In this document: positions 61,412-64,000 of the stretch, in pieces | How the letters are laid out: each line of letters opens with the position of its first letter | Position numbering within the stretch: position 1 is the first letter of the stretch | Source: Cupriavidus pauculus | Lineage (GTDB): Bacteria; Pseudomonadota; Gammaproteobacteria; Burkholderiales; Burkholderiaceae | Length of the DNA stretch: 64,000 bases | Assembly (NCBI RefSeq): GCF_002858765.1 | Contig: NZ_PJRP01000001.1 | Coordinates: 340,752-404,751, forward strand | Reading direction: 5' to 3' | The notes under the pieces: generated by a model | What the model was told of the DNA's origin: nothing | Databases searched by the model: none | Seen by the model: the letters and a program-made list of their open reading frames with translations, nothing else | Translations under genes and position numbers: made by a program

Positions 61412-62446
61412 GTGTTTATCCGTCAGCCCACCCAGCGTCGCGGCAGGGATCGCGCACGTCGTCTTTCGTCCGGACAGGCCTCGGCCCATCGTCCGCGCCG
61501 GCATCTGCTGCGCGGCGTGGCGGGGGATGTGTCCGGCGATACGGTGTGGCTGTTCGACCTCGACAACACGCTGCACGATGCCTCGCACGCGATCTTCCCG
61601 GCCATCAACCGGCTGATGACCGCATACGTGGCGCGGGTGCTGGGCAGCGACGAGGCCACGGCCAGCCGCGTGCGCGTGGACTACTGGCAGCGCTACGGCG
61701 CCACTCTGCTGGGCATGATTCGCCATCATCAGGTAGACCCGGCGGACTTCCTGCGCGCCGCGCACGACTTTCCCGAACTGGCCGACATGGTGCGCGTGCG
61801 CCGTGGGCTGGTGGCCGGGCTGCGCCGCTTGCCGGGCCGAAAGATCCTGGTGACGAATGCGCCGCGCGACTACGCACTGGCGGTGATGGCCGTGGCCGGC
61901 ATCGACCGCTGCTTCGAGCGCGTGGTGGCCATCGAGGACATGTGGGTGCATGGCCACCTGCGGCCGAAGCCTGACCGGCGAATGCTGCGCCGCCTGCTGG
62001 CGCAGGTTGGCGTGGCGCCGCACCGCGTGGTGCTGGTCGAGGACACGGTGTCGCACCTGAAGCACTATGCCGGCACGGGTATCCGCACGGCCTGGGTCAC
62101 CGGCTTCCTCCGCACGCTGGCGCCGTCGAGGCCTCATGTGGTGCCGGCCCAAGCTGGCGCGGCGCGCGATGTCGCCACGCGGTCGATGCTGGCGGCCGAA
62201 GATCGCCAGCATGTGAGCCACACGGCCCAGGAGCGCTCGGTGACCCTGGTGGCGGCCGAAAGCCAGGACCCGTCCGCCGGCCGGGACGACGAGTCAAGTG
62301 CCCAGACTGCGGCAACGGCGCCACAGATGCTGCCCGATCACGCCCCAAGAGTGCGGGCGCGCGTGGTGAATCGCCCGGGATATGTGGACATAAAAGTACA
62401 ATTGATGCATCAACTCCTACGACAAAAGCGGAGAATCGGGTCATGA
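61412..62446 (+). CDS. Pyrimidine 5'-nucleotidase (HAD family), unusual C-terminal insert
   Basis: Protein of up to 344 aa. HAD motif I VWLFDLDNTLHDAS, motif II ILVTNAPRDYA, Lys in LRPKPDRRML and VLVEDTVSHL, as in UMP/CMP 5'-nucleotidases of this lineage. The GTG 61412 start is uncertain; in-frame GTGs at 61517 and 61529 would give a shorter protein. Between the core and the conserved end (GYVDIKVQLMHQLLRQKR) is an ~80-residue Ala/Ser/Gln-rich insert encoded by DNA with inverted repeats (e.g. 62186-62212). It overlaps slmA by 4 bases (ATGA). Confidence 0.82.
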   Translation: MFIRQPTQRRGRDRARRLSSGQASAHRPRRHLLRGVAGDVSGDTVWLFDLDNTLHDASHAIFPAINRLMTAYVARVLGSDEATASRVRVDYWQRYGATLLGMIRHHQVDPADFLRAAHDFPELADMVRVRRGLVAGLRRLPGRKILVTNAPRDYALAVMAVAGIDRCFERVVAIEDMWVHGHLRPKPDRRMLRRLLAQVGVAPHRVVLVEDTVSHLKHYAGTGIRTAWVTGFLRTLAPSRPHVVPAQAGAARDVATRSMLAAEDRQHVSHTAQERSVTLVAAESQDPSAGRDDESSAQTAATAPQMLPDHAPRVRARVVNRPGYVDIKVQLMHQLLRQKRRIGS

Positions 62447-63099
62447 CGCAAACCATCGCTCGCGAGGCAGAGGCTTTCGTGCCAGTTGCCCCATCGGCCA
62501 TCGAGCCAGAGACCCCGGCACGCAAGCGCCCGCGCCCGGGCGAACGCCGTATCCAGATCCTGCAGACGCTGGCCGGCATGCTCGAGCACCCGCGCGGGGA
62601 AAAGATCACGACGGCCGCGCTGGCCGCGAAGCTGTCGGTGTCCGAGGCGGCCCTGTATCGCCATTTCGCCAGCAAGGCCCAGATGTTTGAAGGTCTGATC
62701 GGCTTTATCGAGCAGACGGTGTTCGGCCTGATCAACCAGATCACCACGCAGGAAGAACACGGCCTGCGCCAGGTGCAGGCCATCGTGCGCATGCTGCTGA
62801 CGTTCGCCGAGAAGAACCCGGGCATGACGCGCGTGCTGACCGGCGAGGCCCTGGTGGGCGAGCACGAGCGCCTGCAGGAACGCATGAACCAGATGGTGGA
62901 TCGGATCGAGGCATCGCTGCGACAGTGCCTGAAGGTGGCGGTCACCCAGGCCGCGTTTCCGGCCGATACCGATATTCCGGTGCGCGTGGCGCTGATTACC
63001 GCGACCGTGCAGGGCCAATGGCACCGCTACGCCCGCAGCGGGTTCCGCAAGCTGCCGAGCGACAACATCGACGCGCAACTGCGCGTGCTGCTGGGGTAA
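62443..63099 (+). CDS. slmA: Nucleoid occlusion factor SlmA
   Basis: Protein of 218 aa, TetR fold. HTH in ITTAALAAKLSVSEAALYRHFASKAQMFEGLIGFIEQTVFGLINQI matches SlmA; RRIQILQTLAGMLEHPRGEKITTAAL is the typical start. SlmA binds chromosome sites and blocks FtsZ ring assembly over the nucleoid. Coupled by overlap to the upstream gene. Confidence 0.93.
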   Translation: MTQTIAREAEAFVPVAPSAIEPETPARKRPRPGERRIQILQTLAGMLEHPRGEKITTAALAAKLSVSEAALYRHFASKAQMFEGLIGFIEQTVFGLINQITTQEEHGLRQVQAIVRMLLTFAEKNPGMTRVLTGEALVGEHERLQERMNQMVDRIEASLRQCLKVAVTQAAFPADTDIPVRVALITATVQGQWHRYARSGFRKLPSDNIDAQLRVLLG

Positions 63100-63146
63100 A
63101 TACCCCGCGCCGGCAGGCGGTCATGCGTTTGGCCGGCGCTTTGCAC

Positions 63147-63152
63147 TATAAT
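63147..63152 (+). promoter_or_regulatory. -10 box of the metX riboswitch transcript
   Basis: A perfect TATAAT. No good -35 lies 16-18 bp upstream. Transcription would start near 63159, exactly at the riboswitch. Confidence 0.6.
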
Positions 63153-63158
63153 GTGCGG

Positions 63159-63245
63159 GTCGCGCCGATTTGATGACTGGCTTGCGGGCGCGCGGCACCC
63201 TGGGAAAATTCTCCGGGTGCCAATATAAATGCGGCTAAAGAGGTT
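63159..63245 (+). ncRNA. SAM-II (SAM-alpha) type riboswitch with an inserted hairpin
   Basis: Order of conserved elements: TCGCGCC, GATTTGA, CTTGCGGGCGCG (closing the first stem with GCGCC), and a 3' part TAAATGCGGCTAAAGAGG close to the SAM-II consensus. Between them, CACCC/GGGTG forms an extra hairpin (63196-63220) not present in the compact alpha-proteobacterial form. It sits before metX, a classic SAM-II target. Adenosylmethionine binding is inferred. Confidence 0.75.
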
Positions 63246-63309
63246 GGGTCGGTGCCTCGCGGATAAATCATCCACGCTCCAGCACCGGCACGCGGAATCC
63301 CGCGAAAAG

Positions 63310-63356
63310 CCCGACTTGGCTGCGAATCCTACGCATTGGCCGGTCGGGTTTTTTTT
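63310..63356 (+). terminator. Attenuator-type terminator between riboswitch and metX
   Basis: CCCGAC (63310) pairs with GTCGGG (63343-63348) followed by eight T, with an inner TGCG/CGCA stem. Lying after the riboswitch and 30 bp before metX, it could make control transcriptional. Confidence 0.85.
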
Positions 63357-63385: not shown

Positions 63386-64000
63386 ATGACCGATGTCGCT
63401 CCTCCCGCTGGCGTGCTCGATGTGCCGACCGATTCCGTCGGCGTCGTCACGCCCCAGCGCCTGCATTTCGCCGAGCCGCTGAAGCTCCGCAACGGCAGCC
63501 AGATTGCCGGATACGACCTGATGGTCGAGACCTACGGCACGCTCAATGCCTCGCGCAGCAATGCCGTGCTGGTGTGCCACGCCCTCAATGCCTCGCACCA
63601 CGTGGCCGGCATTGCCGCCGACAACCCGCGCGATATCGGCTGGTGGGACAACATGGTTGGCCCCGGCAAGCCGCTCGATACCAACCGGTTCTTTGTCATC
63701 GGCGTAAATAACCTGGGGTCGTGTTTCGGCTCCACGGGGCCGATGAGCACCAACCCGGCGACAGGCACGCCCTACGGCGCGCTGTTTCCGGTGGTGACCG
63801 TGGAAGACTGGGTCAATGCGCAGGCGCGCGTGGCCGATCACTTCGGCATCGAGCAGTTCGCGGCGGTCATGGGCGGCAGCCTGGGCGGCATGCAGGCGGT
63901 GGCCTGGAGCCTGATGTACCCGGACCGCCTGCGCCACTGCATCGTGGTGGCCTCCACCCCCAAGCTGTCGGCGCAGAACATCGCGTTCAACGAGGTGGCA
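63386..64000 (+). CDS. metX: Homoserine O-acetyltransferase (partial, cut by the window end)
   Basis: The first 205 residues are present; no stop is reached. [49 protein letters not shown] and the nucleophile elbow [12 protein letters not shown] (Ser) are MetX motifs. Activates homoserine for methionine synthesis. Preceded by SAM-II-like riboswitch and terminator, so it should fall when AdoMet is high. ATG 63386. Confidence 0.95.

Follow-up and report, generated by a model that had tools for sequence, protein, structure and literature searches.

A SAM-II-type leader with an inserted hairpin and a predicted partner-swap terminator upstream of metX in Cupriavidus pauculus

Upstream of metX in Cupriavidus pauculus lies a leader that carries the segments of a SAM-II riboswitch, falls below the threshold of the SAM-II family model and ends in an intrinsic terminator, which raises the questions of what kind of RNA it is and at which step it may control the gene. 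The leader occupies positions 63147-63356 of the window (the whole 64,000-nucleotide stretch of DNA analysed here), between slmA (62443-63099; NCBIfam SlmA, 302 bits) and metX, whose ATG stands at 63386 on the plus strand and which runs past the window end at 64000. In the genome MetX has 390 amino acids, its best NCBIfam model is homoserine O-succinyltransferase (MetX_succinyl, 688 bits, cut-off 560), and metW (278 bits, NCBIfam) is the next gene downstream.

An earlier note, made from the letters of the sequence, had described a TATAAT box, SAM-II segments, a CACCC/GGGTG hairpin in the linker and a T-tailed terminator in series before metX, and all of these were located by direct reading on the plus strand. 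The TATAAT box (63147-63152) has no recognisable -35 element, and a consensus promoter scan found no sigma-70 -35/-10 pair in the window leader; judging from the position of the box, P1 would start at or near +1. The P1 stem-loop (63161-63192) is closed by CGCGCC (63161-63166) and GGCGCG (63187-63192), and its loop contains the L1 motif GATTTGA (from 63167) and the 5′ pseudoknot strand GACTGGCTTGC (63175-63185), whose CTTGC end lies at 63185. The linker between P1 and the 3′ pseudoknot strand holds the inserted 28-nt hairpin GGCACCC..GGGTGCC (63194-63221), and an A-rich linker follows before the 3′ pseudoknot strand of P2 (GCGGCTAAAGAGG, 63231-63243; GCGGCTAAAGAGGT, 63231-63244), which contains the invariant GCTAAA. 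Further downstream are a spacer hairpin GTCGGTGC..GCACCGGC (63248-63289), which is predicted with the aptamer locked and, in a shorter form, for the free nascent RNA, and the intrinsic terminator (approximately 63307-63356; eight-T run 63349-63356), which a consensus scan did not call in the window under its stem and loop rules. Named genomes were scanned with the metX protein, and among the best 80 of 575 relatives the same ordered core was present upstream of metX at 79 loci, including those of Cupriavidus, Ralstonia, Pandoraea, Paraburkholderia, Trinickia, Caballeronia and others, all with the insert; the one locus without it, L048, is truncated 4 nt upstream of the gene match, and its row was dropped.

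SAM-II has been reported from alpha-proteobacteria and a few others, with Bordetella bronchiseptica appearing in a legend of the available text (Corbino 2005, PMC1273637). The window has no Rfam match at gathering thresholds, and with lax filters the family model RF00521 (SAM_alpha) matched only 63161-63192, at 19.8 bits, with a second weak match of 10.7 bits in the region. The earlier note had named the lack of a significant SAM-II covariance match as grounds for giving up the class, and such a match was indeed not obtained for the window itself (19.8 bits against a gathering score of 36), whereas L007, an insert-free metX leader from another family of the order with its gene confirmed as MetX, passes at 40.5 bits. 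None of 20 other insert-bearing loci scanned (13 metX loci and 7 further) passed RF00521; of the short-linker loci, 8 of 13 in a second set passed, reaching up to 52 bits, and L005, L006 and four metZ loci stayed below threshold. Since an insert-free leader with the same core passes, the failure on the window is likely due to the inserted hairpin. The leader shares with terminator-type members of RF00521 the P1 stem, the H-type pseudoknot P2, the GATTTGA/CTTGC/GCTAAA core, a methionine gene, a downstream terminator and a promoter element just before P1, and differs from them in the linker insert, so that the family model covers only half of the window RNA. RF01726 (SAM-II; "SAM-II long loops" in PMC2864571) had no match in the C. 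pauculus genome at E ≤ 10.

The core itself was assessed in 62 aligned sequences comprising metX, metZ and insert-free leaders. The P1 and P2 pairs were formed in 98.3% of 806 cells, compared with 38-55% in slid controls, and 36 cells carried changes in both partners, a number that none of 500 shuffles reached (6.7 in shuffles). P1 was paired in 97.8% of cells, with both-side changes in three of its six pairs. P2 was paired in 96.8-100% of cells, and its outer helix showed both-side changes in two of three pairs, although these mostly represent one split between metX-type and metZ-type sequences and hence few events; the inner four pairs are invariant and thus uninformative on covariation. GATTTG, TTGC and GCTAAA were invariant in all rows, which had partly been gathered by such motifs. 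Taken with the RF00521 score of L007, the covariation and the invariant core bear out the SAM-II identity proposed in the earlier note: by sequence and structure the leader is a SAM-II-type riboswitch, from which we infer that it binds SAM. Membership of this class is in itself ordinary.

A different account would treat the leader as an independent beta-proteobacterial RNA that recognises another ligand and merely looks like SAM-II. Leyn 2014 (PMC4239095) described a "metXZ" element upstream of metXW or metZ in 35 beta-proteobacterial genomes, called it novel, named no ligand in the text available, and confined SAM_alpha to Rhizobiales and Rhodobacterales, and the score of the window below the RF00521 threshold would suit such an account. 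We consider it very unlikely, given that insert-free relatives with the same core pass RF00521, that P1 and P2 covary around the invariant segments, and that the genes served belong to methionine biosynthesis. Rather than a separate RNA, we argue that metXZ may be the insert-bearing variant of SAM-II, an identity drawn from gene, taxon and anatomy. Like the leaders studied here, the element lies upstream of metXW or metZ in Ralstonia, Burkholderia and others and consists of a pseudoknot followed by a terminator; it differs in that terminators are described as consistently present in the accessible part of PMC4239095, whereas our script called none in 47 of 79 metX leaders. If this identity is true, a published orphan regulatory RNA would gain its ligand. 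An equation of metXZ with SAM-II was not found in the open literature, most subscription journals lying outside the search, and as far as searched the insert, the link between metXZ and SAM-II and the terminator mimicry described below are new.

The linker is lengthened in all 79 core-bearing metX leaders, with 60-100 nt from GATTTG to GCTAAA, and in 47 aligned metX rows the inserted segment varies in sequence and in length (18-58 nt, flanks included). With its flanks, the window insert folds at -19.5 kcal/mol; over the 47 rows the mean folding z was -3.6 relative to single-base shuffles, and 46 fell below -1. The six-pair stem of the insert reached 88.2% pairing, against 59.4% in shuffled and 27-51% in slid controls. 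It had 97 cells changed on both sides (41.7 ± 6.6 in shuffles) and a covariation score of 0.750 (0.254 in shuffles), neither of which any of 500 shuffles reached. Taken alone, the number of pairs and the number of pair types were ordinary, being equalled or exceeded in 272 and 119 of the 500 shuffles, respectively. The stem covariation thus backs the inserted hairpin of the earlier note, and inserted stem-loops are tolerated by many riboswitches (Barrick and Breaker 2007, PMC2258182). A role of this hairpin as a switch part was considered and rejected, as shuffling it left the terminator probability normal (71 and 69 of 200 shuffles at or below the real value at 63345 and 63347). Since shuffling had no clear effect on the terminator, the hairpin is probably a spacer or stabiliser.

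In the window the hairpin sits between P1 and P2, at the site of P3 in SAM-V, so that the leader shares with SAM-V (RF01826) both the core fold and a hairpin at the P3 site. According to the accessible text of PMC6061858, P3 follows P1 in SAM-V and is a SAM-V feature absent in SAM-II, while the cores of the two classes superimpose at 0.373 Å, and the leader might on these grounds be taken for a member of SAM-V. RF01826, however, found no match in the C. pauculus genome at E ≤ 10, nor in the region; insert-free relatives score with RF00521; and the insert, which differs between loci in both sequence and size, is lacking at 65 of 90 order-wide loci, so that we regard membership in SAM-V as highly improbable. 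SAM-V is described as translational and as belonging to marine alpha-proteobacteria and Bacteroidetes (PMC6061858). If the SAM-II assignment with a P3-like insert is true, the boundary between SAM-II and SAM-V would be blurred at the P3 hairpin.

Regarding the mode of action, the earlier note started from the premise that SAM-II is thought to act on translation, which is wrong: most SAM-II riboswitches are described as transcriptional (PMC6061858), and many representatives carry putative terminators (Corbino 2005, PMC1273637), which accompany SAM-II in alpha- and beta-proteobacteria (Barrick and Breaker 2007, PMC2258182). A review that, in its available text, groups SAM-II with direct, translational occlusion of the ribosome site (PMC10907184) may explain the premise. 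Transcriptional control as such is ordinary for this class. The SAM-II riboswitch of Sinorhizobium meliloti metZ likewise has a terminator after the aptamer, predicted to form on SAM binding, and differs from the present leader in that no inserted hairpin is mentioned in the accessible text (PMC9373788).

Our script called a terminator in 32 of the 79 metX leaders, namely in Cupriavidus, Ralstonia and two further Burkholderiaceae loci, and a TATAAT box no more than 40 nt upstream of P1 was present in all 32 of them and in none of the other 47. A 15-pair duplex (-22.5 kcal/mol) can form in the window between the terminator 5′ arm and the extended 3′ pseudoknot strand; 11 of 1000 arm shuffles matched it, and the count was 49 of 1000 when the shorter 16-nt strand was used by itself. 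When the nascent RNA was folded free, with 3′ ends at 63327-63347, the antiterminator had a probability of 0.72-0.91 and the terminator of at most 0.005, whereas with the aptamer locked the terminator reached 0.88 at 63345 and 0.93 at 63347. At equilibrium, every end from 63349, the first position of the U run, onward favours the terminator whether the aptamer is free or locked (0.83-0.95), so the model has to rely on kinetic trapping, with the decision falling before the U run is completed. The low free-state value depends on the 3′ strand together with its extension: shuffled versions of 63229-63251 matched it in 1 and 2 of 200 trials at 63345 and 63347 and otherwise let the terminator form sooner. 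The result was less clear when the 3′ strand was shuffled without the extension (14 and 13 of 200). Another candidate for the switch element, the segment 63243-63255, was rejected: it pairs with the aptamer 5′ strand in the minimum free energy fold of the full-length RNA, but the nascent folds favour pairing of the 3′ strand with the terminator 5′ arm.

On these folds, we propose that P1 and the inserted hairpin would fold first. As long as SAM is absent, an antiterminator would form from the terminator 5′ arm at 63309-63323 and the 3′ pseudoknot strand (63231-63237, continued by 63242-63249), the terminator 3′ arm would be available to the 5′ pseudoknot strand, and metXW would be transcribed. 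With SAM, the two pseudoknot strands would pair with each other and free the terminator arms, and transcription would stop at the U run, which is the OFF state; the terminator would in this way serve as a decoy for the aptamer's own strands. Averaged over the 32 terminator-type leaders, the terminator had a probability of 0.11 free and 0.61 locked at two bases short of the U run, and of 0.50 free and 0.91 locked at the U run. The antiterminator pairing stayed below 0.1 two bases before the U run in seven of the 32 (L031, L034 and L043-L047); in L043 the script had chosen a wrong hairpin, and in L044-L047 the free and locked states were almost equal. The switch in the window is thus supported by nascent-RNA folds and shuffles, in line with the earlier note's step from terminator to transcriptional control, and the support across Burkholderiales is statistical and incomplete. 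We consider it quite probable, on this modelling, that the leader belongs to the SAM-II class and acts as an OFF switch on transcription, with a P3-like insert between P1 and the 3′ pseudoknot strand and a partner-swap terminator; the kinetics and the direction of control in the cell are predictions of this model.

The 47 metX leaders in which the script found no terminator belong to Paraburkholderia and relatives. Shortly upstream of the gene, 42 of them have a near-exact complement of GCGGCTAAA, and its pairing was at or below 10 of 200 shuffles in 38 of the 47. In such leaders the complement is followed by a Shine-Dalgarno-like GGCGG, which can pair with the complement too. Folding was limited to the 39 of 79 leaders that have both motifs: locking the aptamer lowered the accessibility of the Shine-Dalgarno-like site from 0.12 to 0.00, and in the free state the complement paired almost as often with that site (0.47) as with the 3′ strand (0.50), with the anti-sequestor almost absent in 10 of the 39. 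This is suggestive, not strong, modelling evidence that the same aptamer stands before an apparent Shine-Dalgarno platform in Paraburkholderia and relatives, which, if true, would let control at transcription and control at translation be compared cleanly in natural leaders that share an aptamer. Five Pandoraea metX leaders (L053, L082, L084, L089 and L096) keep aptamer and insert and show neither terminator nor anti-sequestor motif.

Could the window leader, too, act on the translation of metX, its terminator being constitutive or leaky? In the related genera just described, the same aptamer comes without a terminator, and a perfect or nearly perfect complement of the 3′ strand directly precedes a GGCGG complementary to it. 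This would speak for translational control, as would S. meliloti metA, where a SAM-II riboswitch is followed by a terminator not predicted to be SAM-responsive (PMC9373788, in the text available). In the window, however, the aptamer ends about 140 nt before metX with the terminator in between, the predicted folding switch engages the terminator arms, and TATAAT box and terminator occur together in 32 of 32 leaders, so that we think translational control unlikely here and retain the transcriptional switch as the preferred reading.

The terminator 5′ arm (CCCGACTTGGCTGCG; GACTTGGCTGCG) resembles the aptamer 5′ pseudoknot strand GACTGGCTTGCG, so that both are able to pair with the 3′ pseudoknot strand. 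At L133, the same site as the window, pairing of the terminator 3′ arm with the aptamer 5′ strand (-20.0 kcal/mol) was matched by 0 of 200 shuffles, and pairing of the 5′ arm in the same test by 17 of 200. The sample was then 104 leaders, made up of the 90 order-wide loci and 14 earlier loci. The script called a terminator in 93, one of them false, and found none in 11, some of which show a stem with a broken T run missed by the rule. After removal of L135 (not a real terminator), L145 (3′ strand mis-set) and repeats, 83 distinct terminators were left. Of the two arms, the 5′ arm was the better partner for the 3′ strand in 67 of the 83 and the 3′ arm the better partner for the 5′ strand in 64, counts that are not independent because the leaders and genomes are related. 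At the 5% shuffle level, the 3′ strand paired with the 5′ arm in 37, the 5′ strand with the 3′ arm in 31, either in 52 and neither in 31 of the 83. A broader reading, for which the case seems evenly balanced, is that metXZ is a large, mostly unannotated SAM-II branch whose terminator evolved as a mimic of the pseudoknot, both arms acting as decoys and all strands exchanging partners when the ligand binds. One aptamer with its P3-like hairpin would then serve two outputs, a terminator in Cupriavidus and Ralstonia and a Shine-Dalgarno sequestor in Paraburkholderia, Caballeronia, Trinickia and relatives, the change between them having been made by reusing a single complement of the 3′ strand.

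For its distribution, a model (R1) was built from the 62 sequences with P1 only, and with its rough E-values the motif was present at E ≤ 0.01 in 259 of 399 sampled Burkholderiales genomes and 119 of 158 genera. If these are true members, the standard library misses many copies of a methionine riboswitch. A pattern search with a linker long enough to match the window gave 15 of 249; with a too-short linker it gave 3 of 399 genomes. At the 90 order-wide loci, which are mostly best matches, 65 linkers were short, lacking the insert, and 25 were long. The C. pauculus genome has one R1 copy at E ≤ 1, and a candidate second copy (RF00521, contig 2, 15 bits) was rejected, as R1 gave it no support.

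Burkholderia-group genomes have a copy before metZ, and the two metZ genes tested encode O-succinylhomoserine sulfhydrylase (L103, 751 bits; L118, 708 bits; NCBIfam). L145 and L152 have SAM-II-like leaders and terminators before metH, whose best NCBIfam match is methionine synthase, the genes being cut by the locus ends. Together with the metX leaders, these would extend the regulon over metX, metZ and metH. RF02424 (Bp2_287, "Burkholderia sRNA") was passed by 30 of 130 family genomes. It covers the metZ SAM-II leader and terminator in the inspected loci L103-L132, being built on the strand opposite metZ, and also matches the window at 63136-63354 on the minus strand. RF02424 is apparently an antisense reading of the SAM-II leader; if this is true, an Rfam "sRNA" family would be a riboswitch on the wrong strand. 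A search of the main text of PMC3521395 for "287" found nothing.

Some arrangements of more than one element were seen in passing. L006 (1339-1558) has tandem SAM-II-like aptamers, with a terminator after the first and the second running into GAGGAGATG, a possible ribosome site; the 115-amino-acid open reading frame downstream has no NCBIfam model match. By eye, L147 apparently has a second, partial SAM-II-like core after its first terminator, at about 1600. On the minus strand of L005, a short contig for which contamination is possible, a SAM-II-like aptamer stands beside a start codon, and a SAM-I/IV match (RF01725, 58.6 bits) lies about 500 nt upstream on the same strand (1495-1559 and 2050-2156).
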